From: Methylococcaceae bacterium
GTDB lineage: Bacteria > Pseudomonadota > Gammaproteobacteria > Methylococcales > Methylococcaceae
Assembly: GCA_902812445.1 (NCBI GenBank)
Contig: CADDZF010000004.1
Location: 1 to 53,399 of the forward strand
Direction: 5' to 3'
DNA length: 53,399 nt
Below the pieces are notes generated by a model. The model was not told the DNA's origin. It made no database searches and saw only the letters and a list, made by a program, of their open reading frames with translations. Positions 12,626 through 53,228 of this stretch are shown piece by piece. Both the position numbers and the translations under genes were made by a program. Position 1 is the stretch's first letter. Each line of letters starts with the position of its first letter.

Positions 12626-13354
12626 TTATAAGATATCGAGCCTTCCACCATCAACCACAAGTGTGGTTCCATTTATATAGCTGGCTTCATCCGATGCAAG
12701 AAAGCAAATAGCCGCAGCCACTTCTTCAGGTTTACCGACATCGCCTTTTATCTTTTCTTTGCCATCTTTAACGTTGGGATTATTCCACAGCATTGGCGTA
12801 TCCACTGCCCCGGGAGCGACACAATTTATTCTTACCTGGCTATGCGAATATTCAAGACTTACGCCTCGCGCAAAAGCTTCCATGGCTCCTTTACTACTAG
12901 CATAAGGGATTACGTTCGCGGTGCTTTCGTGGGCATGAACCGAACTGATATTCACGATAGCGCCCTTCTTCATATGCGGTATGCAATATTTTGCAAAAAG
13001 AAACACCGAACGAAGATTTACCGCCATGACGTGGTCCCATTCTGCAGCAGTAAGATCGATGATCTTTTTAAACGTCATCATTGCCGCGTTATTCACAAGA
13101 ACGTCCACTTTTCCCCAATGATGCAAAGCAAGATCCACAGAAGCTTTTATTTCCTCCTCTTTTCCTACATCGGCTTGACTAAATAATCCGATGCCATTTG
13201 CTTTTACAATCTCATCGACGGTTTTTTGCCCTTTTTCAGGATCACGATCAATTACTATAACGAGACCGCCTTCTGATGCCATCTGCATTGCAGTAGTCTT
13301 ACCAATACCCGACGCCGCGCCCGTAACCAGGCAAACTTTTTTATCGAAGCGCAT
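12626..13354 (-). CDS. SDR-family NAD(P)-dependent oxidoreductase
   Basis: A classical short-chain dehydrogenase of 242 residues. The cofactor motif is VTGAASGIG near the N-terminus; NNAA follows at about residue 90; the catalytic Ser is in NISSVHAHE and the Tyr/Lys pair in YASSKGA. The C-terminal FLASDEASYINGTTLVVDGG is typical of glucose 1-dehydrogenase-like and 3-oxoacyl-ACP-reductase-like members. The partnership with a cytoplasmic GH1-like hydrolase immediately downstream suggests oxidation of a sugar or a sugar-derived alcohol. That substrate is an inference, not seen in the sequence. Confidence 0.9.
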   Translation of the reverse strand: MRFDKKVCLVTGAASGIGKTTAMQMASEGGLVIVIDRDPEKGQKTVDEIVKANGIGLFSQADVGKEEEIKASVDLALHHWGKVDVLVNNAAMMTFKKIIDLTAAEWDHVMAVNLRSVFLFAKYCIPHMKKGAIVNISSVHAHESTANVIPYASSKGAMEAFARGVSLEYSHSQVRINCVAPGAVDTPMLWNNPNVKDGKEKIKGDVGKPEEVAAAICFLASDEASYINGTTLVVDGGRLDIL

Positions 13355-30298: not shown

Positions 30299-31039
30299 TC
30301 AGCCGCGTCGAATAACCGCGTTCTCCATGAACGCTTCATATAAGGAATTGGCAGCCTTGAGCTTTGTTCGGACTGCGGGGCGATCGTTGAGTTCTATCCG
30401 GTACTTTTCACGCTGACTGTTCCGGATTGCCGAAGGCCGGGCTACCCGCATTTCCTGCACCGAGCCGTCCTGGTTTTTCCAATTGCGCTCGATCGCTGCG
30501 GTCATCCTCTCCTGCGAATGCTCGGGCACGGTCAAGGAAAGTGCATAACGCCGATTGAAGTGCTCGATAACCAGACTGAAATCGGAAGTCGTCGATTCAA
30601 ATGGCGCTATAAACAGGCGTTTCGCGTAAGGCCGCATGATGCGGTGGAAATCTATATAAAAATCGAGGCTGTCGGCTAAGTCTTGATCTGCGTACTGAGC
30701 CCAGGAAATACAGGCGCCGGCAGGCTCTCGTAAGACAAACATGCCCGGCTTACCGCTTTTGACCATCGGGATGATGTGGGCGGGAAAGTGGATATGGTAA
30801 AGCAGGCGCTGATGAGTAAGACAGAGTTCCAGCATCCTCGCCGTATAGGTATTACTCGAGCGAGGAAAACCACCTACCCAAAGGTCATAGTCGGCGGTTG
30901 CGTGCTGGAGAAAAGGTCTGCCCAGAACGGCGGCAATCAGCTTGTACAAAAACGGGTTTCCCCAAAAAATATCCCGTGCAGTCCGCCGCAAGATTCTTGG
31001 CAACATTAGTTTTGGGCGGGATCCAACGTGTACCTTCAT
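30299..31039 (-). CDS. Sulfotransferase-like P-loop protein
   Basis: The 246-residue protein has a loop VGGFPRSSNTYTARML that resembles the 5'-phosphosulfate-binding loop of PAPS-dependent sulfotransferases (PRSGTTW in others) and MFVLREPAGACISWAQY, which fits the 3'-phosphate-binding motif. No full domain signature can be seen, and the fold could belong to another P-loop family. It is the last gene of the long minus-strand glycan region and follows the GT4 gene by 10 bases, so it is probably co-expressed. If it is a sulfotransferase, the glycan would be sulfated. Confidence 0.6.
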   Translation of the reverse strand: MKVHVGSRPKLMLPRILRRTARDIFWGNPFLYKLIAAVLGRPFLQHATADYDLWVGGFPRSSNTYTARMLELCLTHQRLLYHIHFPAHIIPMVKSGKPGMFVLREPAGACISWAQYADQDLADSLDFYIDFHRIMRPYAKRLFIAPFESTTSDFSLVIEHFNRRYALSLTVPEHSQERMTAAIERNWKNQDGSVQEMRVARPSAIRNSQREKYRIELNDRPAVRTKLKAANSLYEAFMENAVIRRG

Positions 31040-32501: not shown

Positions 32502-34886
32502 TCATCGAGAGGATGGAATTTCGTGCAACGGACGTCCCCGCCGTATCAAATCGGCAAATTCTCTGGCTCGATCCGGCTGCTGGCTCTCAAGCCGACGATG
32601 CGCAGGAGCGATTTTAGCGTCGTAGTCAGCGGCTTCCCGACTTGCCCCGGTACAATAGGCAATTAGGCTATCCTCGCTATTCAAGCGCAAAGCCTCGCGG
32701 CAAACATCGAGTGCGCGCTGGTAGCGTCCGAGCGCAAAGTAGGTCAATCCCAGGCGCGCACTGAGCTTCCCGTTCCCCGGATCGAGCTTGATCGCATGCT
32801 CATAAGCCCGGGCCGCTTTAGCGAGAAAATTCGTTTGCCGATAGCCATCACCGATCTGGGTCCACAAACGGCTCTGACCCTGCAGGGGAAGGTGAACGGC
32901 TTGGGAGCTGGCCGGAAATGTCAGTTCAGAAAAACTGATCGGGATGATGCGACCATAGAACAACCGCGCAGGCGTGTTCCATTCTATTCTCATCGAAACG
33001 ACTGGATCGTCTTGGCTTTCCATCGGCTGGCCCAATGCCAGCGCGGCAAAATCAAATCTATCGCGGACAACCGGCGACAGCAAAAAACCCTTGCCGGTGA
33101 TACCCGGTATCAGCCGGAATTTTTCCTCTCGGTTATGCGCATACGTCACGACAAGCTTGATTTCCGGCAGTTTATACAGGGTATTGACCCATCGCCCGAG
33201 GAGATTTTTCTCCAAACCGATTTGCGCCCAGACCAAAGGAATGCCGCGGGGCAGAGAAAACGCCTCGCCGAAGCGAACTTCGATCCGATACAGCGGCTTT
33301 ATCGCGTACTCCCGCTGGACGCTGCGCTTTTTCAGCTCCAGGAACTGCGGGAGTAGATCGTTTAAATCGTACCGGGTGAGGAGTTCGGGCCAGCTCGCGC
33401 CATCATCCTGGGAAGGAAAACGGCCATCGATGGTCTTGAGATCGAACAGCAGCGTATTCGCGGACTGACCGCTTCGCAAAAACTGCAGATTTTTCTCTAT
33501 CAGATAAGGGGTATAGACCGAATAGCTCTGAAAGATGGGACGCGGCTTCAACGCCATACCCCGTGCCAGGACCGCTGCTTGATCCCACGGATAGACGTCA
33601 ATGGTACCTTCGATTTTCGGTAGCTGGCTGGCTTCATTTATCGACTGTTTTTGGCGATCGGCTAAACTCTTCAGCCGATCGATGTGTCTGCCGGTCAGCC
33701 AACTGCGAAAACTCGCCACGTTGTCTCGTATTTGCAGCGCCTGCTCCTTCACGATTGCCGCCGGGCCTTTGTGAGCGCTCAATGAGATCGAGGAATAGAC
33801 CAGCAGAATTTCAATGGCCATCACTCCGCCAGTAAGTACCTTGATCGGCCTCAACACACCTTTTTGCCGCCACACTTCAACCCCATGCAGACTGCTCACC
33901 GCCAATAATCCGCCGAACGCACAAGGAATATGATCCGAGCGGGTCAAACCGGCCTTGAAAAACATGAACAAGGTCACTGCGCTGGAACAGAGCACAATCG
34001 AGGGAATTGGACGATAAGTTCCTTTCCCATACCGGACCGACATGAACAGAACGAGTGACACGAGCGTCAGGAATAGAAACGCTGCAACGGCCACCGCCTC
34101 ACGCCACCCGCGCTGGTACTGCATGGCTTCACTGTACCCGCTCAGTAGGTTCATCGAGCCTTGTAAGAAGGCGTCGAAATCCGCCGTCCGCTGACCACTG
34201 AGTACAAATAACGCCCATACGGCGCCGACATACGCTACCGAAAAAACCGGCATTCGGTTGCCGTAACGAAAAAACCGCTGCAGGTCTACGAGCGGCACCA
34301 CGGCAAGGCACAGCACCGCGAAGCTGAACTTGACCAAGCTTATCAGTGCGCAAATCACGATCAAGCCGTGGGTCAACCAACGGATTAATTGGCTATCGCC
34401 GCGCTCAATCAGAGCGACCGCCAGCAAAGGCACGCACAGCCAGACCGAATCCATGGACGTTACAAATCGGGAATCCATATAGATATACGACCAAAACCCG
34501 AGATAGATCGCCGCCAAAAATAGCAGCCGCGGCAGCAACGGCAATGGGCGCAGGATTTCCGCTAGTGCCAATGCGATCACTAACGCGACCGTCAGGCGTA
34601 CCCATAAAAGCGCGGAATAATAATTTTCATCGAATAAATTAAGCCCAAATACACTGAGCGGTCCTTGGGTAAATATGATTTCTTTGCCGGCTCTGAGGCG
34701 ATGATCAAATGCGTAGGCCATCGTTTGCTGCCAGGACGGATCCAGTCCGGCCTTTGCCATGGTCGGATAAAACGGGACAAAGAATGCAACAAAAAAGCAG
34801 AAGGCGATGGCGGCAAAGGCGGAATCGAGAACTTGCTCTCGTTCGAGCTTGGCGAACTTCAGCGCAGAGAACCAACCGGCAAGCAT
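32502..34886 (-). CDS. Polytopic membrane protein with C-terminal TPRs (GT-C-like)
   Basis: A 794-residue protein. The first 400 residues hold about ten hydrophobic helices, including a luminal-looking loop with AGLDPSWQQTMAYAFDHRLR and KEIIFTQGPLSVFGLN, an arrangement seen in GT-C membrane glycosyltransferases and their relatives. A soluble periplasmic region of about 280 residues follows. The last 100 residues contain two to three TPR-type repeats (AYEHAIKLDPGNGKLSARLG and RALDVCREALRLNSEDSLIA). I do not recognise the family and cannot show catalytic residues. ATG 34886 is chosen; it lies in the run that follows the GT39-like gene. Confidence 0.75.
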   Translation of the reverse strand: MLAGWFSALKFAKLEREQVLDSAFAAIAFCFFVAFFVPFYPTMAKAGLDPSWQQTMAYAFDHRLRAGKEIIFTQGPLSVFGLNLFDENYYSALLWVRLTVALVIALALAEILRPLPLLPRLLFLAAIYLGFWSYIYMDSRFVTSMDSVWLCVPLLAVALIERGDSQLIRWLTHGLIVICALISLVKFSFAVLCLAVVPLVDLQRFFRYGNRMPVFSVAYVGAVWALFVLSGQRTADFDAFLQGSMNLLSGYSEAMQYQRGWREAVAVAAFLFLTLVSLVLFMSVRYGKGTYRPIPSIVLCSSAVTLFMFFKAGLTRSDHIPCAFGGLLAVSSLHGVEVWRQKGVLRPIKVLTGGVMAIEILLVYSSISLSAHKGPAAIVKEQALQIRDNVASFRSWLTGRHIDRLKSLADRQKQSINEASQLPKIEGTIDVYPWDQAAVLARGMALKPRPIFQSYSVYTPYLIEKNLQFLRSGQSANTLLFDLKTIDGRFPSQDDGASWPELLTRYDLNDLLPQFLELKKRSVQREYAIKPLYRIEVRFGEAFSLPRGIPLVWAQIGLEKNLLGRWVNTLYKLPEIKLVVTYAHNREEKFRLIPGITGKGFLLSPVVRDRFDFAALALGQPMESQDDPVVSMRIEWNTPARLFYGRIIPISFSELTFPASSQAVHLPLQGQSRLWTQIGDGYRQTNFLAKAARAYEHAIKLDPGNGKLSARLGLTYFALGRYQRALDVCREALRLNSEDSLIAYCTGASREAADYDAKIAPAHRRLESQQPDRAREFADLIRRGRPLHEIPSSR

Positions 34887-35011: not shown

Positions 35012-36595
35012 TTAACTTTTCGCTTGGTCAAGGGCAAGGAAATGAATCACGAGACAGCCATTTTGCACAGATGCAATCGCCCGCCCCTGGAGACTCGCTT
35101 CCTGAACCATGTGATCGAGTGCAGAGCGCCTTGCGGTATCCCAGGGCTTGTCCTTTCCCTCGCAATCGATCACTGCCGAGAGCGGGACCGGGGCGACCCA
35201 TAAAGCCGGCGCCTGGATCACGGACCGGAACAGATCTTCAGGCGTCCAAGTCGCCACATTGAGGCTCTTGCGCTTGGCATAAAAAGCCAGCTCTGGCGAG
35301 GACTCGAACCCGAAGACAACGATTGCGGTGTCGGGTGGAGTAGTCGATCTGACGTAATTCGCGACGTTGATGGTGCGATACCAATCCGGCGGAGTCACCA
35401 CCAACGGATGAAATTGCTTGAAATAATGCGTGAGCTGCGTACCGGCCAGGATCAGCAACAGCGCCAAAGAGAGCCAGCGTGGCCCATTGCGCCACAAATC
35501 ACCCAAGAGCAAGGCCAGTAAAGCGATGAGGAAGAGGCTGTTTCCGACCTGGTAATAGTTATGAACAATGTGGAGGTTCGTGAAAACGAGGAACGGCAAT
35601 AGAAAAAGCAGCCCTGCCACTGCGGCCGCTATCCATCTTCGCCGGGATACTGCAAACGCCGCCACGACCACGCTCGCGGCGACGGCGGATGAGCCCGCGA
35701 TATCCGGAATGGCGCGGCCCAGAATGGCGCCCCGCCAAAGATCCGAGCTCCATCGTTGAGCCCATGTCCCGAAATTCCATCCCTTCAGCGCGTCAGAAGT
35801 CAGCAACGCGCCCCACGGATTCAGTACCTTGAGGCTATCTGCAAAATCAGTCCATGCCTTCAGCGCGATAAACGCAATGACGAGAGTCAGCATGGCGGGC
35901 AGATGACGGCGCACAAGAACGGACGGCCGGCGCCATGCGCCCTCGCGCTTCGCATGCCAGGCGATGAGGCACCCTGCGGCGAGAGCGAAGCCGAGGAAGG
36001 TGGTGATCTTGACAGCGGCCGCAAGCGCCGCCGTGACGGCAGACAGGACGAGTAACCCTGCGTTGCCGGTCAAAAGATAGCGTTGCAGAAAGGCCACGTA
36101 AAGCAAGGACAGAAAAACCGCCATGGATTCGATCATGACGGTCCGGCCCCAGAACAAGTGCAGCGGAGCTAAGAGAAACAGTATGCCAAAAATAAGGTAT
36201 TCGTCTCGATTGAGGCCGAGATCTCGATAAAGAAGATGTGCCGGCCACAAGCAGCCGACGAGCAGCAGGAATGACAGAAGACGCCCGTTTGCCTCGATCG
36301 ACAGCGGGCCGAACTGGTGCAGCGCAGCAACGATCCACTGATAGAGCGGAAATTCGAACGGAATAGCCCAAGGAAAACCCAATGCCGGGGTTTCATAGGC
36401 GAGCCAGGCGCCGCCGTGGACCAGCCAGTACACCGTCAGAGCGGTTTGCGTCTGGCGAAATGAATGCAAATCCAGAAGCGGCTGCTGCAAGCCTAAGAAT
36501 AAGACCGATATGGCGAGGCCTAACGCCGCAAGAAACAGAAACCCAAGCAGTCGACCATCGATTTTCGCGTACCGATCAATAGTCTCAGGCGACAT
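35012..36595 (-). CDS. ArnT/PMT-like membrane glycosyltransferase (GT39 type)
   Basis: A polytopic protein of about 527 residues with a GT-C topology. The first periplasmic loop holds LLDLHSFRQTQTA, where an Asp precedes an HSFRQ motif as in family-39 related glycosyltransferases that use polyprenyl-phosphate sugars. More than ten hydrophobic segments follow and a small soluble tail. I start at ATG 36595, which has a GGAG upstream, rather than the TTG at 36628. The donor could be the polyprenyl-phosphate pentose made by the 40605-44093 module or another lipid-linked sugar. Confidence 0.8.
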   Translation of the reverse strand: MSPETIDRYAKIDGRLLGFLFLAALGLAISVLFLGLQQPLLDLHSFRQTQTALTVYWLVHGGAWLAYETPALGFPWAIPFEFPLYQWIVAALHQFGPLSIEANGRLLSFLLLVGCLWPAHLLYRDLGLNRDEYLIFGILFLLAPLHLFWGRTVMIESMAVFLSLLYVAFLQRYLLTGNAGLLVLSAVTAALAAAVKITTFLGFALAAGCLIAWHAKREGAWRRPSVLVRRHLPAMLTLVIAFIALKAWTDFADSLKVLNPWGALLTSDALKGWNFGTWAQRWSSDLWRGAILGRAIPDIAGSSAVAASVVVAAFAVSRRRWIAAAVAGLLFLLPFLVFTNLHIVHNYYQVGNSLFLIALLALLLGDLWRNGPRWLSLALLLILAGTQLTHYFKQFHPLVVTPPDWYRTINVANYVRSTTPPDTAIVVFGFESSPELAFYAKRKSLNVATWTPEDLFRSVIQAPALWVAPVPLSAVIDCEGKDKPWDTARRSALDHMVQEASLQGRAIASVQNGCLVIHFLALDQAKS

Positions 36596-36783
36596 GTTGC
36601 CCGTTATCTCCAACCGCAGCAGCGGCAAACTAACCGATTCTGTGCGCGAAAACGGCGCGGTGATACTCGGCAGAGCGATCTTCGGAAGGCCGGCACAAAA
36701 AATCGAGCAAGGTTCGCACTACCGCCGCTCTACACCGAACAGCGAAAGAACGTCTTTGCAGCGTTTTCAGAGCCTGCGGCCGT

Positions 36784-38082
36784 TCACGTATTGACCGAAG
36801 CGATTTCTGCCAGTTTTTTTCCGACCTTTATACTTTCCGAGATCGATCGATCTTCCGGGTAGTAATAGGAAGTGTCGGCCATGAAAAATCCTTCAAGACT
36901 GGTTCGTATCGCCGGAAGCTTGGCGAAAAAATCAGGCGTGCAGACAGTCTGTGCAAACTCATAACGGGTAACCCGACTGGATAAGATGCAGTCGTCGGTC
37001 AAACTCGGACTGATGCGTTTGATACAGCTTATGACCTCGTCGATAAACTCGTGACTTTCGGCGCGATACCTCGGATGCGTTTTCGGCATGTAGTAGGGCA
37101 CATAGAGGACGTTGTGCTGGAGCGGGTTGAGATTGGTATATTCGATGATGCCCGGAATCGGCATGCTGGCATCGTTGACATTCATCCAGAAGTAATCCGT
37201 GAGAGGCCGTTTGAGCTTGAGCAAAACGCACACAACGCCGATATTCTCGATCGCCTTGATTTTCGCCAGTTCATCGGGATGGAGATCCGGCGCAAACCTC
37301 GGCACATATTTCAATGGAACGGTCGATATCACCTTATCGCAGGCATAGCGTTGGCCGTTGGCCACGATTCCGCATACGCGTCCGTTTTCGGTCACTAATT
37401 GCTGTGCCGGCGTCTTTACCATGATCTGTCCGCCCATCGCCTGCATGCGCGAACACAGCGCTTCCACGAAGATCTCAGAACCGCCCTCGAGATAACCAAA
37501 CCGCTCGCTAAACATGCTCCTGCGCGACTTGGCGACGCGTGCGATGCGAGTTCCGATCCAGGCCGCCGAAAGGCATTCGGCGTATTCGTGAAATTTCAGC
37601 CGGAACAACGGCTCCCATAGCACGTTATAGGCGCGTCGCCCGATCCAGCGCTTGATCCAGCTCGTGGCCTCTTCGCGATCGAGAGCGGTCCAGTCCTCGA
37701 TCCGCTTGGCATGAAGCACGTGCAGCGCGTAACGCACCTTGGACAGGAAATCTAGATGAGGAAATTTGAGCAGACAATCGGGTCTACCCCACTCGTAGAG
37801 TCGACCCTGATAATAAAATCCCATCCGGGTTTCCCGCCACCGCAGCTTATCCGTCAGCTCGAGCTCTTCCAGAGCCTCGAACAGCGGGTAATCGGTAGAA
37901 CAGATAAAATGATAAAAGCGTTCGATCTTAAGCCCGTCGAAGTCGAACGAAGCCGACATTCCGCCGATACGATCATCGGCTTCCAGGACCAATACCTCAT
38001 GATCTCGCTTCATCAGTTCGTAGCCACAGGCAAGACCCATCGGCCCTGCTCCGATCACTACTGCCTTTTCCTTTGCGGCCAT
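36784..38082 (-). CDS. FAD-dependent amine-oxidase-like oxidoreductase
   Basis: A 432-residue flavoprotein. The dinucleotide-binding motif is VVIGAGPMGLACGYELMKRD, followed by EADDRIGGMSASF, the second FAD contact. The rest looks like protoporphyrinogen/phytoene/UDP-galactopyranose-mutase relatives, with ESIKVGKKLAEIA at the end. I start at ATG 38082, 14 bases after the stop of the epimerase; the open frame extends to 38550 but that extension is the antisense of another gene. Its role is unknown. Its place beside an epimerase and methyltransferase suggests it modifies a sugar or lipid-linked sugar. Confidence 0.85.
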   Translation of the reverse strand: MAAKEKAVVIGAGPMGLACGYELMKRDHEVLVLEADDRIGGMSASFDFDGLKIERFYHFICSTDYPLFEALEELELTDKLRWRETRMGFYYQGRLYEWGRPDCLLKFPHLDFLSKVRYALHVLHAKRIEDWTALDREEATSWIKRWIGRRAYNVLWEPLFRLKFHEYAECLSAAWIGTRIARVAKSRRSMFSERFGYLEGGSEIFVEALCSRMQAMGGQIMVKTPAQQLVTENGRVCGIVANGQRYACDKVISTVPLKYVPRFAPDLHPDELAKIKAIENIGVVCVLLKLKRPLTDYFWMNVNDASMPIPGIIEYTNLNPLQHNVLYVPYYMPKTHPRYRAESHEFIDEVISCIKRISPSLTDDCILSSRVTRYEFAQTVCTPDFFAKLPAIRTSLEGFFMADTSYYYPEDRSISESIKVGKKLAEIASVNT

Positions 38083-38096
38083 CCGTCTGCTTTCTG

Positions 38097-39044
38097 TTAG
38101 TTGGTCCTTTGGAGGGTAATGCCGCTGTACTCGGGATGACAAAACGTTTCTCTCGCGGCATCCTCGAAATGAGTGGGCTCGATCCCGAACGTCGCCACCA
38201 TGTCGACTCCAGTGAATCGGTCTCCGGCGGTCAGCGACTTTAACTGATCTGCGGTAAACGGCGGCCGCGCACTGAACACGGCGTAGATTTTGAGCAAGGT
38301 GTAAAACAACCCATACGGAATACGAACGATCCGGGTTTTGAGCTTTTTGACTCTTTTTATAATGCGGATCATGTCGATGTAGTCGATGTGATCGGGCCCC
38401 ACCAAATCGAAAATTTGGTTTTCGGGCTGCCTCTCCATACACGCCACAATGATTCGGCAAAAATCTCGGTTGTATAGCGGCTGCCTCATATACCGGCCGT
38501 TGCCTGGGATGGGGAAAACCGGCGTTTTTTCCATAAACCGCGCCAGCCAACCCAAGTGTTTCGGATCGAACCAGCCGAACATCAGCGTCGGGCGCAAGAT
38601 ACAGTGTCTAAGCCCGCTCTCGATGACTAATTTTTCTTGGGCTTTCTTGGTGTGGGTGTAGTCATCATCGGCGACCGAATTGACTACTGACGAGCTAATG
38701 TGAACCAGATAGGGGACGCGATGGCGTTTCATCGCTTGCAGAACGCGCCGGGTCGCCTCGATATTGTTTCTGACGAATAGATCAGACGATTTTCCAGTTA
38801 TTTGGGCGTGCAACTGGATCACGACCGCTGCATCAGCAAAGGTTTCTTCCCAGCCGCCTGCCTCGGCCAGATCCGCCCGCACGCTGTGGACCGAGGGGTG
38901 CAAGTCTTTGAGCACTGCGAGGTTATAGTCATGCTTGTCGATGGCGACGAGGTGATTGAACCCCTGCTCTTGCAGCAGCGTGACGAGGTTTTGCCCCACC
39001 AGTCCCGCCGCGCCGGTAATGACGATTTTGTCATTCGGTTGCAT
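38097..39044 (-). CDS. NAD-dependent epimerase/dehydratase (extended SDR)
   Basis: An extended SDR of about 315 residues with IVITGAAGLVGQNLVTLL at the N-terminus, IHISSSVVN-like strand (YLVHISSSVVNSVADDDY) and the catalytic-looking Tyr with a following Lys in DDYTHTKKAQEKLV. The C-terminal half is not of the classical GalE type. ATG 39044 (MQPNDK) has a strong GGAGCGGGAGAA ribosome-binding site a few bases before it, so I prefer it to ATG 39065. It is followed by the FAD oxidoreductase with a 14-base gap. Confidence 0.87.
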   Translation of the reverse strand: MQPNDKIVITGAAGLVGQNLVTLLQEQGFNHLVAIDKHDYNLAVLKDLHPSVHSVRADLAEAGGWEETFADAAVVIQLHAQITGKSSDLFVRNNIEATRRVLQAMKRHRVPYLVHISSSVVNSVADDDYTHTKKAQEKLVIESGLRHCILRPTLMFGWFDPKHLGWLARFMEKTPVFPIPGNGRYMRQPLYNRDFCRIIVACMERQPENQIFDLVGPDHIDYIDMIRIIKRVKKLKTRIVRIPYGLFYTLLKIYAVFSARPPFTADQLKSLTAGDRFTGVDMVATFGIEPTHFEDAARETFCHPEYSGITLQRTN

Positions 39045-39152
39045 TTCTCCCGCTCCGTTGGTCATGGCACGTTATTGTAGTGATCCGCGTAGCGAGCGCC
39101 GGGCGAACCTTTTGCGCGAAAAAACCAAGCCTTTGATTTAGGCGTGCAGGGT

Positions 39153-39827
39153 TTAGCGCGTCGCCGGCAATGTCGGTTTCCGGCTGATGATAAGGAACTG
39201 TTTCCCCAGTATCCACCACGCAGGCTTGAGCTTCAGGTAGGCCGCAATGAGAACGGGATGCTGGGGCAATAGCGATCGCGTCGTATAGGGCAAAAATTTC
39301 GGGACGATCTTGGATACTTCATAGCCCGCCTGCACCAGGCCTTCTTCCATCGAAAGGTGCGACAGCGGCAAGTAGTGATCATAAAAGTCCCAGTAACGGT
39401 CCGCCAGGTATCGGATATTCGGTCCCATCACGATAAACGTGCCGCCCGGTCTCAGTATGCGTTTGACTTCGCCGAGAACCCGATCACACGCGTGTTTGGA
39501 TTCCAGGTGTTCGAGAAAATTGGATGTGAAGACGACATCGATGCTGCAGTCATCGAGAGCCGAAATATCATCCGCGGGACATTGATAAAAGCGCACGTCT
39601 TCGGATAAAAACAGCTTCGCATCCGGATTGAGATCAACGGCGTGCTTTTCGCCCGCACGGATATTGTTGATGAATTCGCCATACCCGCACGCGAGGTCGA
39701 GGACGGAGGCATTCGGAGGAATGGCGCGCTGGAAATAATTCTGACACAGCACGTTCCATATGCGCATTTTTTTCGGTAGTTCCGCCTCGGAGAAGCGAAA
39801 CTTATACAGCGCTGAAAGGTTTGGCAT
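39153..39827 (-). CDS. Class I SAM-dependent methyltransferase
   Basis: A 224-residue methyltransferase with motif I VLDLACGYGEFINNI, the acidic residue in HAVDLNPDA, and motif IV VVFTSNFLEHLESK, features of the Methyltransf_11/23 type. It is likely to methylate a sugar, a lipid carrier or a glycan end. It belongs to the run methyltransferase, epimerase, FAD oxidoreductase on the minus strand. The substrate is not visible in the sequence. Confidence 0.88.
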   Translation of the reverse strand: MPNLSALYKFRFSEAELPKKMRIWNVLCQNYFQRAIPPNASVLDLACGYGEFINNIRAGEKHAVDLNPDAKLFLSEDVRFYQCPADDISALDDCSIDVVFTSNFLEHLESKHACDRVLGEVKRILRPGGTFIVMGPNIRYLADRYWDFYDHYLPLSHLSMEEGLVQAGYEVSKIVPKFLPYTTRSLLPQHPVLIAAYLKLKPAWWILGKQFLIISRKPTLPATR

Positions 39828-40009: not shown

Positions 40010-40474
40010 TCATCGCTTGAACGACCAGTATTTGTGGCCGAAATAGCTGGTCAAAACAGGAATACCGACGCCAAAGAAATGGGCGACTTCTTCTGCATAC
40101 TGGGCCACTCCAGCGGCGGGCAACAGCCAGCGAGCAAGGAGAAGGCTGATCGCGACGGTCTGAATCAGGGCAAACAGATTAACCAGCACATAGTACAGCA
40201 CCTGCATCCTTACCGGATTGCTGCCGCCGCCGAAAACAAACGCCCGCATGAGGATAAATCCGGTCATCAAGCCGACGAAAAAGGCGCAAACGATGGCCGG
40301 CACATACTCCATGAATTGACTGAAGCCGATACGCGAGAAGAAATTCGCCGCCGCCGCAATTCCACCGGCCGCGACGAATTTCATGAATTGGAGCGAGAGA
40401 AGGCCGCTCCGCGGCCTGGGCGTCGACTTGCGCGGCCGCACCTGTGCCGATGAGCGTCTCGAGGCGCTAGTCAT
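40010..40474 (-). CDS. GtrA-family membrane protein
   Basis: A small integral membrane protein with four hydrophobic segments, starting at LQFMKFVAAGGIAAAANFFS and ending at SYFGHKYWSFKR, typical of GtrA. GtrA proteins are thought to flip or assist the flipping of polyprenyl-phosphate sugars. I start at ATG 40474, which leaves a basic N-terminal segment of about 30 residues; the frame is open to ATG 40588, which would add 38 residues without homology. The gene follows the DprE2-like reductase, so it is a good candidate for translocating the lipid-linked sugar made by the three upstream genes. Confidence 0.85.
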   Translation of the reverse strand: MTSASRRSSAQVRPRKSTPRPRSGLLSLQFMKFVAAGGIAAAANFFSRIGFSQFMEYVPAIVCAFFVGLMTGFILMRAFVFGGGSNPVRMQVLYYVLVNLFALIQTVAISLLLARWLLPAAGVAQYAEEVAHFFGVGIPVLTSYFGHKYWSFKR

Positions 40475-40604
40475 GTTCGTCCATGGCGATCTTTTCATCC
40501 CACTGCATCTGTCAACGGCTTCACCGCCGCAATAGCCATCCTGTCGGTTCCTCGCATCGCTCGAATCGCGCCTCTCGTCGTATTTCATCTGTCAAGAGAT
40601 AGGC

Positions 40605-41342
40605 CTAAAGCTTCATTTTTTTGAACAGCCTTTCCGGAATCGAGTTGATCACCGCCATGATAAAACGCCAGAACCAAGGCAGATAAACCACGTCTTTTTT
40701 ACGCTGAATGGCGCTGTAGATACCGCCAGCGACCTTCTCCGGCTTGGCCCAAAGCAGGCCTTTTTGGAAACCGGCGGTCATCGGCGTATCGACAAAACCG
40801 GGTTTGATGGTCAGCACCTGAATATTGGCTCGACTCAAGCGATTGCGCAGGCCCTGCAGAAAAACGTTGACCGCCGCTTTTGCCGTGCCGTACACATAGT
40901 TGCTCTGGCGTCCGCGATCACCGGCTACGGACGACAGCACGGCGATCGTCCCCGAACCCTGCCGCTCGAAATGATCGGCCAGATAGGTCAGCAGCGAAAG
41001 GATGCTCAGGCAATTGGTTTGCAGTTCCTTCAGCGTTTCGTCGAAGGATTGCTCGCAGGCTTTCTGATCCGGCAGGGTGCCATGCGCGATCAGCGCAACG
41101 TCCAGCCCCCCGAGCGTCACGATCGCCGTTTCGATCATCGCGCGGTGGCGAGAAAAATCATTGGCGTCCATTGCCTCGGTTTCAACTTGCGGGGCGCCCC
41201 GCACGCGTAAGTCATTGGCGATGGCGCCCAGCCGGTCTTGGTTTCGAGCGACGAGATAAAGCGCGTCCCCATTACCGGCAAAAAGCCGGGCGGTCGCCTC
41301 GGCAATGGCCGAAGTAGCGCCTACGATGAGCACTTTCCGCAT
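40605..41342 (-). CDS. DprE2-like SDR, lipid-linked sugar reductase
   Basis: A 245-residue SDR with the cofactor motif VLIVGATSAIAEATARLFAG, the Ser in VLSSVAGDRGRQSN and the Tyr/Lys in YVYGTAKAAVNVFL. It matches the DprE2 type, which reduces the 2-keto group of decaprenylphospho-2-keto-erythro-pentofuranose to give the arabinofuranose donor in mycobacteria. It sits 6 bases after the DprE1-like gene, and the pairing supports the call more than the sequence alone. A general SDR role on another lipid sugar is possible. Confidence 0.85.
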   Translation of the reverse strand: MRKVLIVGATSAIAEATARLFAGNGDALYLVARNQDRLGAIANDLRVRGAPQVETEAMDANDFSRHRAMIETAIVTLGGLDVALIAHGTLPDQKACEQSFDETLKELQTNCLSILSLLTYLADHFERQGSGTIAVLSSVAGDRGRQSNYVYGTAKAAVNVFLQGLRNRLSRANIQVLTIKPGFVDTPMTAGFQKGLLWAKPEKVAGGIYSAIQRKKDVVYLPWFWRFIMAVINSIPERLFKKMKL

Positions 41343-41348
41343 AGTTGA

Positions 41349-42656
41349 TCACTCCATTACGCGTCGCCAGAAACTCGAGGAGAACCTGGGATCGATATGG
41401 CGCCGGAATTCGCTCCAGCGCGGGAAATAGCGGCGAAAGCTGTCACCGGACATACGCGCATCCTTCGCCGGATACACCCGCCCGCCGGCTGCCAGGACCA
41501 CTTCATCAAGCCGGTTCAACAGTTCAAACGTGGGCGCGCCGCGGTTGGGGAAATCGAGCGCCAGGGTCGCGCCAGGCAAGGGAAAGGAAAGCAGCCCCGG
41601 CGAAGTCGCCGCGCCGAACAGTTTGAGCACGGTCAGAAAAGAGCCCGTCCTCGATCGCGCAATCCTTTCCAGGATCTCCCGCATTGCCCCGCGCGCATGG
41701 CGCGTGGGTACGGCACACTGGTACTGCAGGAATCCTTTGCTACCGTACATTCTGTTCCAGCCGAGAATACTGTCGAGCGGATAGAAAAAGGGCTGATAGT
41801 AGAAATTGGCGTGCAAGGACCGCTGGCGCTGTTTGTGATAGTAAAGTCGGTTGAATGCCTGTAACGTCAAGCCATTCACCAGTGAAAAAGGCAGCTGCAG
41901 CGGAAAACTCAATTTTCGGCGCGCTATCTTTGGCTGAGCGCAACAGAAAGGTCCTGCGTGATTGCCCCGCAGGTAAATGCCGCGGCCGAGCGCCCGTCCG
42001 CGAGACAGGCAGTCGATCCAGGCGACGGTGTATTCATAGGCCCGATCCGAGGTTTCGGAAAGTTCGAAAAACTGATCGAGCGTATCGAAACGAATGGTCT
42101 CCGCGGCGATGAACGGGCTCGCAATACGCTTGAGCTTCAACTCTGCCGCGACGATCACACCGGTCAACCCCAGCCCGCCGATCGTCGCGCCGAACAACGC
42201 CTGGTTTTCCGCGGGAGAGCAAACTAGCCGCGCGCCATCCGAGCGCAGGAGCTCGAATCGGCTCACGTGACAGCCGAAAGTGCCGGCTCGATGATGGTTT
42301 TTACCGTGCACGTCATTGGCGATCGCACCGCCCACCGTGACGTACTGAGTGCCCGGCGTCACGGGCACGAACCAGCCTTGGGGGACGATGAAACGCAGAA
42401 TATCAGCCAGCAGCACGCCCGCTTCACAGCGCAGGATGCCGGTAGCCGGATCGAAAGCGATCAAGCGATCGAGCCCCCGGGCAACCAGCAGCACGCCGTT
42501 TTCGTTGAGACAACTGTCACCGTAGCTGCGTCCATTGCCGAACGGCAGCACGGAAAGGCCGTCGCCGGGCACCGGCAGCTCGGCGTCTCGCCAGCGCAGC
42601 AAGCGGGCTTGCTGTGCCAGCTTGGGATAGCCACCCCAGGATTGATACGCCGTCAT
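41349..42656 (-). CDS. DprE1-like FAD-dependent oxidoreductase
   Basis: A 435-residue oxidase of the VAO/D-arabinono-lactone family. The FAD-binding region shows VLPFGNGRSYGDSCLNENGV near residue 40 and PVTPGTQYVTVGGAIANDVH followed by GKNHHRAGTFG near residue 110, a combination seen in DprE1. DprE1 oxidises the 2' hydroxyl of decaprenylphospho-ribose as the first step of epimerisation to arabinose. The gene lies between the UbiA-HAD prenyltransferase (3-base gap) and DprE2-like gene, so the three would act in sequence. Confidence 0.88.
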   Translation of the reverse strand: MTAYQSWGGYPKLAQQARLLRWRDAELPVPGDGLSVLPFGNGRSYGDSCLNENGVLLVARGLDRLIAFDPATGILRCEAGVLLADILRFIVPQGWFVPVTPGTQYVTVGGAIANDVHGKNHHRAGTFGCHVSRFELLRSDGARLVCSPAENQALFGATIGGLGLTGVIVAAELKLKRIASPFIAAETIRFDTLDQFFELSETSDRAYEYTVAWIDCLSRGRALGRGIYLRGNHAGPFCCAQPKIARRKLSFPLQLPFSLVNGLTLQAFNRLYYHKQRQRSLHANFYYQPFFYPLDSILGWNRMYGSKGFLQYQCAVPTRHARGAMREILERIARSRTGSFLTVLKLFGAATSPGLLSFPLPGATLALDFPNRGAPTFELLNRLDEVVLAAGGRVYPAKDARMSGDSFRRYFPRWSEFRRHIDPRFSSSFWRRVME

Positions 42657-42659
42657 TGT

Positions 42660-44093
42660 TCAGACGGCCAGCCAGACGACGACTCCACTCAGCGCGCCGA
42701 TCAACAAGCTCGTGCGGTCGCGGAACGTAAAAACGATAGGATCATCGTGCATAGCGCCGCGGTGAGTGATCAACCACATCCGGCTGATCCAGTAGAGCAG
42801 CAAGGGGCAGAGCAACCAGATGATTCTCGGATGGCTATAAAGATCGATCACGCCCGGACTGTTGATGTACAGCGCCAGCACCAATACCGCGAGATAGCCG
42901 CTGGTAGCGCCGAGCGACTGCAACACGAAGAGGTCTCCCACTTCATAACGGCGACCGGCGGGACCTTCTTGACCCTCGCTCTGCACCGTCATCAATTCGG
43001 AATAGCGTTTGATCAAAGCCAGGCTGAGAAAAATAAACATCGAAAAAGCGAGCAGCCAGAACGTGAGCGGATTTTCGATCGCTGCCGCCCCCGCGATGAT
43101 GCGCAGCGTGTAAAGTCCCGCCAGAACCAGAACGTCGAGCATGACGACATGCTTTAACCACAGGGAATAAGCGAGCGTCACGCCGAAATAGCAGGCGAGC
43201 GTCAGCACAAAGAACAACGGCAACTGGATCGCCACCAGGCCGGCGGCCAGCAGTAATAACGGGATGAGAAAAACGCCGTGGAGCACGGGAACGGCTCCCG
43301 AAGCAAACGGCCGCTCGCATTTCCGGGGGTGGTGGCGGTCCGCCGAGAGATCGAGCAGATCATTCACCAGATAAACGCTGGAAGCCGTCAGGCCAAAAGC
43401 CAAAAAAGCCAGCAGCGTATCGATCACCAGCGCCGTATTACCCAACTGGTGGCCCATCACGAGAGGCACGAAAATGAGACAGTTCTTGACCCATTGATAC
43501 AGCCGCAGCGCACGGATATAGGCCCACAGCGAAGGCCGCTGCTTGTCCAGGACGTGCGCGATGTTGCCCAGTCGCCGCCGCGCCTTCCGCTCCAGATGGC
43601 CGCCCGGATTCACCAGAATCGCCTGGCGCGCGTGGGGCCAGATTTTGAGATCGACCGCGGCATTGCCGGCATAATCGAAGCCTTTTTCACCGAAGCGGTG
43701 GACCAATCGTTCGAGCTTGTTCCTGCCCGAGAGGTTCGTGTGCAATTCGGTCGCCAGGATTTCCTCGAAGATGCCCAATTGCTCGGCTATCTGGTCTGCA
43801 TACTTGCGCGGCGCCGCGGTCGCCAGAATCAGCCGTCTGCCGTCGCCGTGCTGGGCTTTGAGAAAGGCGAGGAATTCGGGATGATAAGGCAGCACGGCGA
43901 TATCCAGCTCAACCCGCTCGGCAACCCTGTGCTTGAGATGGGCCCTGCCGCGCAGCAGCCAGAACGGCAGCCAAAAAAGCAGCAAGGGATTACGTTTCAA
44001 AAGACCCAAGACCGCTTCCATGAGCAGATCCGTTCTGATCAGGCTGCCATCGAGATCGACGGCGAGTGGCGATGAGGTGTCCTGTTTCTGCAT
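42660..44093 (-). CDS. HAD-UbiA fusion: polyprenyl-phosphate phosphoribosyltransferase-like
   Basis: Residues 1-190 form a HAD-type phosphatase domain, with motif I AVDLDGSLIRTDLL, then LILATAAPRKY and a later YAGNAAVDLKIW acidic motif. Residues 195-477 form a UbiA-type membrane prenyltransferase: NDLLDLSADRHHPRK is the Asp-rich metal motif and YSLWLKHVVMLDVLVLAGLY the second. This resembles mycobacterial Rv3806c (decaprenyl-phosphate 5-phosphoribosyltransferase). The fused phosphatase could then remove the 5-phosphate, a step that uses a separate enzyme in mycobacteria. With DprE1/DprE2 next door the predicted product is polyprenyl-phosphate-arabinofuranose or -ribofuranose. Confidence 0.87.
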   Translation of the reverse strand: MQKQDTSSPLAVDLDGSLIRTDLLMEAVLGLLKRNPLLLFWLPFWLLRGRAHLKHRVAERVELDIAVLPYHPEFLAFLKAQHGDGRRLILATAAPRKYADQIAEQLGIFEEILATELHTNLSGRNKLERLVHRFGEKGFDYAGNAAVDLKIWPHARQAILVNPGGHLERKARRRLGNIAHVLDKQRPSLWAYIRALRLYQWVKNCLIFVPLVMGHQLGNTALVIDTLLAFLAFGLTASSVYLVNDLLDLSADRHHPRKCERPFASGAVPVLHGVFLIPLLLLAAGLVAIQLPLFFVLTLACYFGVTLAYSLWLKHVVMLDVLVLAGLYTLRIIAGAAAIENPLTFWLLAFSMFIFLSLALIKRYSELMTVQSEGQEGPAGRRYEVGDLFVLQSLGATSGYLAVLVLALYINSPGVIDLYSHPRIIWLLCPLLLYWISRMWLITHRGAMHDDPIVFTFRDRTSLLIGALSGVVVWLAV

Positions 44094-44206: not shown

Positions 44207-46363
44207 TCAAGGCGCGTTCGAACCTTGGCTGGCGTCCGCTGGCGTGAGTCTGAGTGATCTGAGCCCCAACCCCAATCGTCGCGGATCGCTCGACAGGCCG
44301 AGCTCGGCCGGAGATACCGGATTTCTGATGTTAAACCGAACCCGCAGCAGATCGTTGTTCGCCAGCGCCGCGGTTTGGGGGATCGTCAAGCGCATCGTCC
44401 CGAAAGGCGCTGCTTGGGTAAAGTAAAGAGTGCCTATCGAGCCGTCATTGACCGAGACTTCGACTTCCTGTGTCGGACGGCGGGCGGTGATATATCCATC
44501 CGCGCTCAATTCGAGCGTTAAATCGGATGTGACCGGCTTATCCAGCTTGATGACGAGCGCCGCACTGGAACTTTCGGACCAGATACCCCAGGGCTCTGGA
44601 ACAGACCAACCGTACGCTATATAGTCCTGACCCTTCCCCGTGGTGTTGAATTGAATCAAGGTTCCGATTTCATATCCCGGCGATGTCCCATCGGTGCTCG
44701 GATCAGCGTTCAGCGCGGTACTTTTGATGCAGTCCGAACAGTCTGCCCAGTCCGGCGCCAGTACACGGAACCCGTCCACGATGCCTGCCCGATCGCCCTT
44801 CCTCAACGCGACCTGCGCAACGTTCCATAACCCTCGGTGATAGAAGACGTATAACGCATCGCGGTCCAGTTCCCCCGAAACCAAAGAATCGCTCAGTCGC
44901 TCACTCACCTCACGCCGCCGGGTTTCATTGAGCCGCGCAAGATAGGCGACATTGATCGTCATCCCATGCGATGCGGCATAATAACCCAAGGGAAAATAAT
45001 TCTCCGCTATGTTGCTGGGAAGGACGTAGATGATCTTCCGGTACTTGTTCGCCGCCGCGCTCCAGAATGGGGAACGCAGCGGCGATTGCCAGGGCGGTGC
45101 TTCAGCATGCCTCTTGTAAAAAAAAGAAAAGACTGCGGAGCTATCGATGATCTGGAGCGGCAAAAGCCCGGCCAGCAGAATGATGGCGGGGCGCCGGTCG
45201 AATCGGGTCAGAATCACATAGAGCACCGAAAGCAGAAGCAGATAATAGACCGGCCAGAAAAACCGGCCGGAAGCTCGGAAGGCATTGGCCAAAGGCTGAA
45301 AAAATGCCGGCAAGGGATAGGAGAGCAGCCGCTTTTCGCCCAGCCCTACGTGATTGGAGAAGGCAAAGGCGGTAAGCAGCAGAGAGACGATCACTAGAGG
45401 CAGTAGAGCCCGCCAGCGGACACCGTGCAGCGGGGTGCGAATCAGTTCCGCAGCAGCGATGACCGCCAAAAGCAACACGCCGAGACCTAAGAAATTGAAC
45501 CCCTCATAGTCGCCAAGTCCCTCCGGCTGATTCTTCAAAAAATGGGACCACGAGGGTCCAACATGATTTGCCGGATCGATCAGCGACAGCAGATTCATGC
45601 GATAAAAACCGAAAGTCTCACTTGCGATGCTGGCGCCGGGCATGAAGAAACCGCCCAGCCACATCACCGCCACGATCCCTGCCGTACAGGACAGGAATGC
45701 GACGGCCGCCTGGGTGCGCGTCATCTCTTGCAGTAGCAGACGCTTGGTCAGATCGGCCAGCCAGATCGGCAGCACCATGGCAAGCAAATAGACGTGCACC
45801 AAGGGTGCGATGGCGAGCAACAGCAGCCAGCGGCGGTGACTGCTTTTAGCGGACAGGTAGAGCAGCAAAGCGGCCAATACGAGCCATTGGCCCATCATCG
45901 TGTAATGACCTTGCAAGCGCCAGAGAAACGGCGGGGCCAGTACAAAAAACCCAGTTCCGAGCGTTTTCAATCCATTATCGCGGGTCCATCTGGCGAGCAG
46001 TTGCCAGGCAAGCAGCGCTTGCAGGATGAAGCACAAGAGTACCCAGATGCCGCTGTACTGGAACGGAGTCGGAAGTAGAGCGCTGAACGGCTTGAACAGG
46101 AAGGCGAACAGCGGAAGGGAATCCGAGTACACGATGGAACTGCTGATTTCGGCGCCGTAGCCAGGATTCGCTCCGAGCGGCCACTGGAAAAAAGGCGTAT
46201 TGCGGAAAAAATGCCAGCCAAGAAAATGGGTGGCGGGATCGCCTCGCGTTAGCCAATCCACATACGTGGGAGACAATATTTTGCCGCCCGTGATCAAAAA
46301 AAAGGCAATAGAGCCGAGCCCTATCGGTATCGTTACCTGCGAGTCAACGGATAAACGCCGCAT
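44207..46363 (-). CDS. Large polytopic membrane protein, GT-C-like, with C-terminal beta-domain
   Basis: A 718-residue protein. About ten hydrophobic segments fill residues 10-420. The first large loop has TRGDPATHFLGWHFFRN, with an acidic-plus-His pattern as in GT-C enzymes, and then QWPLGANPGYGAEISSS. A soluble region follows, and the end is a beta-rich domain marked by GWSVPEPWGIWSESSSA. It looks like the DUF6311-type group of putative membrane glycosyltransferases, but I give this name from memory. A strong AGAGGAGAG ribosome-binding site precedes ATG 46363. It lies directly upstream of the UbiA-DprE1-DprE2 genes. Confidence 0.78.
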   Translation of the reverse strand: MRRLSVDSQVTIPIGLGSIAFFLITGGKILSPTYVDWLTRGDPATHFLGWHFFRNTPFFQWPLGANPGYGAEISSSIVYSDSLPLFAFLFKPFSALLPTPFQYSGIWVLLCFILQALLAWQLLARWTRDNGLKTLGTGFFVLAPPFLWRLQGHYTMMGQWLVLAALLLYLSAKSSHRRWLLLLAIAPLVHVYLLAMVLPIWLADLTKRLLLQEMTRTQAAVAFLSCTAGIVAVMWLGGFFMPGASIASETFGFYRMNLLSLIDPANHVGPSWSHFLKNQPEGLGDYEGFNFLGLGVLLLAVIAAAELIRTPLHGVRWRALLPLVIVSLLLTAFAFSNHVGLGEKRLLSYPLPAFFQPLANAFRASGRFFWPVYYLLLLSVLYVILTRFDRRPAIILLAGLLPLQIIDSSAVFSFFYKRHAEAPPWQSPLRSPFWSAAANKYRKIIYVLPSNIAENYFPLGYYAASHGMTINVAYLARLNETRRREVSERLSDSLVSGELDRDALYVFYHRGLWNVAQVALRKGDRAGIVDGFRVLAPDWADCSDCIKSTALNADPSTDGTSPGYEIGTLIQFNTTGKGQDYIAYGWSVPEPWGIWSESSSAALVIKLDKPVTSDLTLELSADGYITARRPTQEVEVSVNDGSIGTLYFTQAAPFGTMRLTIPQTAALANNDLLRVRFNIRNPVSPAELGLSSDPRRLGLGLRSLRLTPADASQGSNAP

Positions 46364-51289: not shown

Positions 51290-52189
51290 CTATTGGGAAG
51301 CGGCAGCGAACATCCATTTTAGCGTTTCTGCCAAAGGCAGAGAAGGTACAAAACCAATGAGTGACTGCAATTTCGCGGGATTACCGATGAGCCGTTTAAT
51401 CTCGTTTTGGCGCACGAAATCTGGATTGACGACGACCTCGATACGATAGCCCGCGAGCTGCTGCATGAGGTCGATGACATCGCCCAGTGCGGTGCCGTGT
51501 CCCGAACAAAAGTTGACGATTTCCCCATCACTCTCGGTCTCCAGCAGCTTCGCATAAGCCTCGGCGATATCGCGCACATCGGAAAAATCGCGCACCACGT
51601 CGAGATTGCCGAGTTCGATCCGGGTCTTGCCCGCCCTGAAATGGGCGACGATTTTCGGAATCAGGAAATGTTCCTCCTGCCCCGGCCCGGTGTAGTTGAA
51701 GGGGCGCGTCAGCAGGATCGGCAACTGATCGTACCAGGTTCGCACCATGTGCTCCATGGCGAGCTTGCTGTTGCCGTAATGATTGACCGGAAGGGGACAG
51801 ACCGTCTCGTCCACGAGATTTACCGGCGGATTGCCGTAGACGTTCGCGCTGCTCGCGATCACCACTTTCTTCGGCGCGATTCCCGCTGCTGCCAGTCCCT
51901 GCAGGAGATTAAGGGTTCCAAAAAGATTTACCTGGTACATCGCTTCAGGGTCGGCATGCGCCACAAAGGAGATAGCCGCGAGATGCACCAGGTAATCCGG
52001 ACGGACTTCCGCCACGACCTTAACGACTTTCCCGGCATCGGTGATATCGCATGACACCTCATCCGGGCCGGAAGCCAAGCCATTCACCAGGCCGATGACG
52101 TGATAGCCCCGTTGGCGCAGCAATCCACAAAGATACGAGCCGGTAAAACCCCGGCTTCCCGTGACCAGTACTTTCCGTGGACGCGCCAT
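51290..52189 (-). CDS. rmd: GDP-4-keto-6-deoxy-D-mannose reductase (RMD-like)
   Basis: A 299-residue extended SDR. The cofactor motif is VLVTGSRGFTGSYLCGLL, with the catalytic Tyr/Lys in NHYGNSKLAME and the RPFNYTGPGQ block of RMD enzymes. It follows gmd directly (1-base gap), so GDP-mannose would be converted to GDP-4-keto-6-deoxymannose and then to GDP-D-rhamnose. Reduction to GDP-6-deoxy-talose is a possible alternative, since the two reductases are similar. This sugar nucleotide is the likely donor for the GT2, GT4 and fusion proteins in the cluster. Confidence 0.85.
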   Translation of the reverse strand: MARPRKVLVTGSRGFTGSYLCGLLRQRGYHVIGLVNGLASGPDEVSCDITDAGKVVKVVAEVRPDYLVHLAAISFVAHADPEAMYQVNLFGTLNLLQGLAAAGIAPKKVVIASSANVYGNPPVNLVDETVCPLPVNHYGNSKLAMEHMVRTWYDQLPILLTRPFNYTGPGQEEHFLIPKIVAHFRAGKTRIELGNLDVVRDFSDVRDIAEAYAKLLETESDGEIVNFCSGHGTALGDVIDLMQQLAGYRIEVVVNPDFVRQNEIKRLIGNPAKLQSLIGFVPSLPLAETLKWMFAAASQ

Positions 52190-52190
52190 A

Positions 52191-53228
52191 TCAGAACGAA
52201 AACCCTTGCCGATTGCGCCGAAGATCTGCCTCCACCATGAGCTGGCACAGCCGTTCCAGGCTGGTTTCGGCTTTCCAGCCCAGTTCGCGCCGTGCCTTGG
52301 CCGGGCTGCCGATCAACAGCTCGACCTCGGCAGGCCGGTACAGCTGGGGGTTTACCCGAACGAGGGTCTTGCCTGTCGCGACATCGATGCCGACTTCGTT
52401 TTCGGCCCGGCCTTCCCAGGCGATGCGAATATCCACCGCCCGGCAGGCCAGGGTGACGAAGTCACGGACCGTTTCCGTCCGCTGGGTTGCCAGCACGTAG
52501 GTGTCGGGCCGATCGGCCTGGAGCATCAGATACATGCCGGCGACATATTCTTTCGCATAACCCCAGTCGCGCTTGGCGTCCAGATTGCCCAGCTCGAGCA
52601 CATCGAGAAGACCGAGCTTGATCTTGGCGATGCCGTCCGTAATCTTGCGCGTGACGAACTCGCGGCCCCTCAAGGGCGATTCATGATTGAACAGAATTCC
52701 GCTACAACCGAAGATGCCGTAAGACTCGCGGTAATTGACGGTCGTCCAGTGGGCGAACAGCTTGGCGACGCCGTACGGACTGCGCGGATAGAACGGCGTC
52801 TCCTCGGTCTGCGGGACCGTCTGCACCTTGCCGAACATCTCGGAAGTCGAGGCCTGATAGAACTTGATTTCCGGATTCACGGTGCGGATCGCTTCCAGCA
52901 CATTGAGGGCTCCGAGCCCGGTGATCTGCGCGGTTGTCGACGGCTGATCGAACGACACGCCGACAAAGCTCTGGGCCGCGAGGTTATAGACTTCATCCGG
53001 CCGCGTCTGCTGTAACAGGCGAATACTCGTACCCAAATCGGTAAGATCGTAGTCGACCCGCGTCAGATTCGGATGATCGGCGATGCCCAGTTCTTCGATC
53101 CGCCAAAAGTTCAGCGAGCTGGTACGCCGGCACGTGCCGAACACCTGATAACCGCGCGCCAGCAGAAATTCCGCGAGATAAGCTGCGTCCTGACCGGTAA
53201 TGCCGGTAATAACCGCTCTCTTGTTCAT
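52191..53228 (-). CDS. gmd: GDP-mannose 4,6-dehydratase
   Basis: A 345-residue extended SDR that removes water from GDP-mannose to form GDP-4-keto-6-deoxy-D-mannose. The start [20 protein letters not shown] is the GMD cofactor motif; the active site is in [10 protein letters not shown] and the Tyr/Lys in [28 protein letters not shown] is the family signature for GMD. It ends in the same operon as rmd with only one base between stop and start. No upstream gene of GDP-mannose synthesis is in the window. Confidence 0.97.

Follow-up and report, generated by a model that had tools for sequence, protein, structure and literature searches.

The window analysed here is a 53,399-nucleotide stretch of DNA from Methylococcaceae bacterium (contig CADDZF010000004.1, positions 1 to 53,399, GenBank assembly GCA_902812445.1). 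On its minus strand, four intact and closely packed genes encode a HAD-UbiA fusion protein (42660..44093), a DprE1-like FAD oxidase (41349..42656), a DprE2-like short-chain reductase (40605..41342) and a GtrA family membrane protein (40010..40588). Their Pfam domains are HAD and UbiA (PF12710, PF01040), FAD_binding_4, adh_short and GtrA_DPMS_TM, respectively. An earlier note, made from the sequence, had read these four consecutive genes as a candidate polyprenyl-phosphate-pentofuranose pathway. All four open reading frames (ORFs) are indeed in place, and the statement that three of the genes are spaced by no more than 6 bases holds true of HAD-UbiA, DprE1 and DprE2, with gaps of 3 and 6 bp; DprE2 and GtrA are separated by 16 bp as the ORFs were called.

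The HAD-UbiA protein has 477 residues and is present as a single copy in its own genome. It scores 663 bits against NCBIfam PRK08238 (cut-off 351), 151 bits against the decaprenyl-phosphate phosphoribosyltransferase family (under the equivalog cut-off of 207) and 30.5 bits against 4-hydroxybenzoate octaprenyltransferase (UbiA). Rv3806c is its sole significant relative in the PDB. The UbiA domain is not closest to the 4-hydroxybenzoate or homogentisate enzymes, a possibility that the earlier note had raised, and a quinone prenyltransferase was ruled out by the scores of 663 versus 30.5 bits together with the PDB result. The HAD motif residues D13-x-D15, T92, K126 and D148 are invariant across an alignment of 14 relatives. 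The UbiA domain contains N244-D245-xx-D248-xxx-D252, R363 and E366, of which N244, D248, D252, R363 and E366 are invariant in the same alignment. These motif residues match N247, D248, D251, D255, R366 and E369 of Citrobacter ORF15 with a constant offset of 3, and N247, D251, D255, R366 and E369 of ORF15 are described as having been mutated in the Citrobacter study (PMC11127046). Closest to Rv3806c and carrying both the N-D-xx-D-xxx-D and R..E motifs, the protein falls among the Rv3806c/ORF15-type transferases; an N-terminal HAD domain with a catalytic DxD on the same polypeptide places it with the HAD-fused polyprenyl-phosphate phosphoribosyltransferases (PPPRS) exemplified by Citrobacter ORF15. 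The claim of an Rv3806c-like UbiA protein fused to a HAD phosphatase is thus supported by Pfam, the PRK08238 score and the PDB match, and the protein is predicted to act as a polyprenyl-phosphate 5-phosphoribosyltransferase whose N-terminal part is a phosphoribose phosphatase.

The DprE1-like FAD oxidase (435 residues) is nearest to DprE1: its top PDB match is DprE1 (E = 3.6e-77), followed by xylitol oxidase as the next family (E = 8e-11). It keeps the active-site residues Y60, H132, K134, W230, Q334, Q336, K367 and K418 (Mycobacterium tuberculosis numbering). The counterpart of Cys387 of M. tuberculosis DprE1, the residue to which benzothiazinones attach, is Ala366. The next protein, of 245 residues, is a short-chain dehydrogenase/reductase (SDR) nearest to DprE2, with M. 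tuberculosis DprE2 as its top PDB match (21gq_C, E = 5.3e-32; next SDR 2.4e-19). These closest matches and the DprE1 active-site residues support the DprE1/DprE2-type pair for epimerisation that had been claimed. A second DprE2, suggested by clustering at 12626-13354, turned out to be a generic SDR next to a glycosidase-like gene.

The GtrA family protein contains the GtrA/DPMS transmembrane domain (PF04138, 47 bits, residues 70-190), in support of its designation as a candidate flippase. Where its gene starts is uncertain, as the first 69 residues of the ORF precede the family domain and relatives are about 130-140 residues long. The true start probably lies downstream of 40588, and the gap between DprE2 and GtrA would then be about 100 bp or more.

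Downstream of GtrA, the minus strand encodes an epimerase-like SDR of 322 residues, termed S (38097..39065), and an FAD oxidoreductase of about 430 residues, termed A (36784..38085; PRK07233, NCBIfam 516 bits). The SDR contains a glycine-rich GxxGxxG motif and an invariant Y136-xxx-K140, and its linkage is conserved. The mechanical ORF of the flavoenzyme (36784-38550) extends too far at the N-terminal end and so runs into the SDR gene; the PRK07233 match starts at residue 162 of this long ORF, and the start of the conserved protein lies near 38085. In a predicted structure with a predicted local distance difference test (pLDDT) value of 79, the fold of the flavoenzyme is nearest to protoporphyrinogen oxidase and phytoene desaturase, and a UDP-galactopyranose-mutase-like fold was absent among the 50 structural matches listed.

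Conservation of the gene unit

Scanning genome contigs with the HAD-UbiA alignment yielded at least 425 relatives, of which the best 80 loci are counted here. They come from Gamma-, Beta- and Alphaproteobacteria, Myxococcota, Chlorobi and others. DprE1 and DprE2 lie near HAD-UbiA in 57 of the 80 loci, almost invariably arranged as HAD-UbiA, DprE1, DprE2, and the remaining 23 have HAD-UbiA without nearby DprE1 and DprE2. Given that 57 loci contain all three genes, this core is common, and the recurrence of the same order indicates that the gene run did not arise by chance.

Among these 57 loci, GtrA is present in all 20 that also have the SDR and the flavoenzyme, versus one of the 37 that do not (Fisher p ~2e-14). 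The SDR (E <= 1e-30) was found in 6 of 151 Methylococcales genomes, each time near HAD-UbiA and DprE1/DprE2; in a single one of these genomes another contig carries a second SDR copy. Within a class sample of 369 genomes, 13 possess the SDR and 12 of these also possess UbiA (54 of 369 overall; hypergeometric p 3.6e-10), the two genes being adjacent in nine genomes. Linkage of SDR, flavoenzyme and GtrA was seen in Gammaproteobacteria, Betaproteobacteria and Chlorobi. Gene order varies, from UbiA-SDR-flavoenzyme-GtrA-DprE1-DprE2 in L130 and L131 to UbiA-DprE1-DprE2-SDR-flavoenzyme-GtrA in L141-L143, and all six genes are present in L139-L143. Two exceptions were found, namely G433 (L132), with the trio SDR-flavoenzyme-GtrA alone at the site, and G182, with the SDR alone. 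Small gaps had suggested UbiA-SDR pairs without DprE1/DprE2 in G215 and G209; all six genes are there in a rearranged order.

The conserved unit therefore consists of six genes, HAD-UbiA, DprE1, DprE2, SDR, flavoenzyme and GtrA, plus a variable GT-C gene. The four genes of the earlier note are real, but its boundary splits this larger unit, as GtrA goes together with the downstream SDR and flavoenzyme. Since GtrA is tied to these two genes, the product need not be plain polyprenyl-P-D-arabinofuranose.

Some loci depart from the fusion or from the common arrangement. The UbiA matches at L141:5589-6530, L142:4458-5312 and L143:5371-6228 leave the HAD domain uncovered; thus, the fusion is not obligatory, and in these loci the phosphatase must come from elsewhere. 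In one Methylococcales genome (G080), HAD-UbiA and DprE1/DprE2 lie about 134 kb apart (L111 and L112), as a split pathway. In L044, L061, L078, L083, L094 and L095, HAD-UbiA occurs without DprE1/DprE2, and a small SMR/EmrE-like protein is found instead as a flippase candidate. A gene for an S-adenosylmethionine-dependent methyltransferase (39153..39827, minus strand; PF08241) is an occasional member of the unit, adjoining or near GtrA in L084, L139 and L140.

Proposed pathway and alternatives

These findings enable us to propose, with good confidence, that the locus is a Gram-negative polyprenyl-phosphate pentofuranose unit within an O-antigen-like cluster. Initially, the UbiA domain would move 5-phosphoribose from phosphoribosyl pyrophosphate (PRPP) onto polyprenyl phosphate, the carrier being very probably undecaprenyl phosphate. 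The fused HAD domain would strip the 5-phosphate. Afterwards, the DprE1-like oxidase and the DprE2-like reductase would together invert C2, yielding polyprenyl-P-D-arabinofuranose. GtrA would carry the lipid-linked sugar to the periplasm, and a neighbouring GT-C enzyme would finally put the pentofuranose on a surface glycan. This lipid-linked sugar is also the most likely substrate of the SDR and the flavoenzyme, prior to flipping. The first three steps are predicted from homology with conserved catalytic residues and the fourth from the GtrA family and gene linkage; the fifth step and the role of the SDR and flavoenzyme we infer. The most economical idea would be that these two enzymes modify the lipid-linked pentose further, because the Citrobacter O2 SDR ORF13 is described as turning ribofuranose (Ribf) into xylofuranose (Xylf), and Xanthomonas loci as carrying several candidate epimerases (PMC11127046).

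Several points weigh against this proposal. The NCBIfam scores for DprE1 (381 bits) and DprE2 (195 bits) are under their equivalog cut-offs of 500 and 250. GtrA follows the SDR and flavoenzyme, not DprE1/DprE2, and its cargo may be other than simple polyprenyl-P-arabinofuranose. The counted loci lack phylogenetic independence, and the route in this bacterium is a prediction from sequence. Furthermore, 36 of the 57 loci with HAD-UbiA, DprE1 and DprE2 have no relative of the GtrA in the window, so other flippases would be needed there. A possible alternative is an LPG_synthase_TM-like membrane protein, found in 22 of the 37 loci without the SDR and flavoenzyme pair versus 4 of the 20 with it.

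The best-surviving alternative is a refinement, to which we give somewhat less than an even chance: the donor would not be D-arabinofuranose, and the SDR and flavoenzyme would act after or instead of DprE1/DprE2, for example by C3 inversion (to xylo- or lyxofuranose) or by further oxidation, with GtrA exporting the product. In keeping with this, gain and loss of the SDR, the flavoenzyme and GtrA go hand in hand, the SDR of the Methylococcales genomes always lies near the pentofuranose genes, and loci that have the pair differ from those that lack it in their type of putative flippase. A single SDR, ORF13, sets Ribf versus Xylf in Citrobacter O2. However, the likeness seen between our SDR and ORF13 is confined to the glycine-rich and YxxxK motifs, the Citrobacter route has no flavin enzyme, and the fold of the flavoenzyme does not indicate a sugar substrate. 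A sharper version, which we hold to be rather unlikely, is that the six-gene unit with its variable GT-C makes a pentofuranose beyond D-arabinofuranose, such as doubly inverted lyxofuranose or an oxidised derivative, and that GtrA is specific for this product. Lyxofuranose is described in PMC11127046 as occurring in no solved carbohydrate structure.

It is improbable that the SDR, the flavoenzyme and GtrA serve a route of their own to another lipid-linked sugar or modified lipid and merely tend to neighbour the arabinofuranose genes. The G433 locus, where the other genes are not nearby, would fit such a route, as would the 37 of 57 loci with HAD-UbiA, DprE1 and DprE2 in which the SDR and flavoenzyme are missing. 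Yet the six genes stay together even where shuffled, as in L130 and L131, and are complete in L139-L143; no second polyprenyl-P-sugar synthase was seen recurring with the trio, though no systematic search was made. A pathway that stops at polyprenyl-P-ribofuranose, with DprE1/DprE2 inactive or used elsewhere, is very unlikely: the 23 loci without nearby DprE1/DprE2 make it conceivable in general, but in the present locus the two genes are intact and follow HAD-UbiA almost without a gap, and the active site of DprE1 is kept. Least tenable is a quinone or aromatic prenyltransferase within an unrelated redox operon, a reading with which the sequence already conflicts; such an enzyme would share membership of the UbiA superfamily but not the score gap to quinone enzymes, the Rv3806c match as the only one in the PDB, the conserved DprE1/DprE2 neighbours and the fused HAD phosphatase.

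Relation to known systems

The proposed pentofuranose route is most readily compared with Citrobacter youngae O1/O2 ORF12-15. ORF15 is a HAD-UbiA fusion for which synthesis of polyprenyl-P-ribofuranose from PRPP was demonstrated biochemically (PMC11127046), so that the chemistry of the first two steps is established there, and the Citrobacter loci share with ours an adjacent epimerase gene (O2), a GT-C and an O-polysaccharide setting. They differ in using a MATE flippase, a GT136 enzyme and at most one SDR, whereas the Methylococcaceae unit has GtrA, both DprE1 and DprE2, an extra SDR and flavoenzyme, and GT-C candidates. The mycobacterial pathway (Rv3806c, Rv3807c, DprE1, DprE2, Rv3789) has a homologous transferase, oxidase and reductase and a small membrane flippase candidate. 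In contrast to its separate phosphatase Rv3807c, the HAD domain is fused here, undecaprenyl is expected as the carrier, and Ala replaces Cys387 of DprE1.

The Pseudomonas paraeruginosa PA7/Pa5196 pilin genes PSPA7_6245-6251 and their P. syringae relatives likewise provide a Gram-negative D-arabinofuranose route, and in P. syringae B728a the protein is reported to bear a phosphatase domain as well (PMC11127046). Their acceptor is pilin via TfpW, and the P. aeruginosa phosphatase is separate, whereas our cluster is O-polysaccharide-like. In Azorhizobium/Rhizobium, the noeC(N)HOP genes include orthologues of three of the mycobacterial enzymes, which make a D-arabinofuranose donor in a proteobacterium; the acceptor there is the Nod factor and the transferase is NoeP.

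The precedent outside actinobacteria that had been claimed, pseudomonad pilin, is thus published. Presenting the route as a mere candidate understated the case: the same fusion has already been characterised in Citrobacter, DprE1/DprE2 homologues are reported as linked to loci for arabinofuranose-containing glycans (PMC11127046), and Azorhizobium noeCHOP offers another precedent. The interpretation of the four genes was largely right, the route itself is not new, and the four-gene finding mainly extends it to a Methylococcales surface-glycan cluster. The part left unexplained in the cited accounts of Citrobacter, Pseudomonas and Azorhizobium is the SDR/flavoenzyme/GtrA linkage, which predicts an extra step on the lipid-linked pentose. 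The linked genes could serve as a signature by which to search for glycans that contain unusual pentofuranoses.

Candidate acceptor-side enzymes and surrounding genes

Three or more GT-C candidates flank the unit; the three described here are on the minus strand. In the first (35012..36628, 538 residues), the first membrane helix is followed by an acidic residue and then by an invariant FRQxQTA motif. Its predicted model (pLDDT 74) matches OST/PglB, DPY19, AftD, AftA and EmbA/B with TM-scores of about 0.4-0.5, a likeness at fold level only. Relatives lie beside the unit in L045, L051, L058, L084 and L114. The second is a large membrane protein with a C-terminal TPR region found by Pfam (32502..34886), with relatives beside the unit in L036, L081, L114, L119, L122, L137 and L139. 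Sequence profiles of two GT-C candidates found nothing in the PDB. Directly upstream of HAD-UbiA, the third (44207..46363) combines DUF6311 with a C-terminal DUF7024. It was rejected as a conserved partner, as its whole-protein relatives do not track the unit; in L042, L073 and L124, proteins next to the unit bear DUF7024-like C-terminal domains, with weak Pfam support in L124 only.

The earlier claim of GT-C enzymes able to use the donor therefore holds as far as candidates are concerned, but no single enzyme is assignable from sequence. The acceptor-side GT-C seems to differ from cluster to cluster. A PPPRS, a flippase candidate and a GT-C candidate are found in one locus, as in a three-component pentofuranose system, the GT-C by fold-level match only.

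The surface-glycan setting with GT-C enzymes was likewise borne out. An AMO/pMMO family gene, present in two copies in family relatives, was not found in the organism's own 260-contig assembly, which could reflect a collapsed repeat or genuine absence. The minus-strand run from 53228 to 30299 is rich in surface-glycan genes, including a WbsX/GT2 glycosyltransferase, PhyH, several large membrane proteins and a group-1 glycosyltransferase, and the cluster around the pentofuranose genes looks like an O-antigen or O-polysaccharide cluster. The run is closed by a 246-residue protein (30299-31039) with no Pfam match. At its other end, two genes of the GDP-mannose 4,6-dehydratase family (51290..53228, minus strand; 299 and 345 residues; PF16363, 177 and 444 bits) probably supply a GDP-6-deoxyhexose, whose specific identity is a matter of inference, to the surface polysaccharide.

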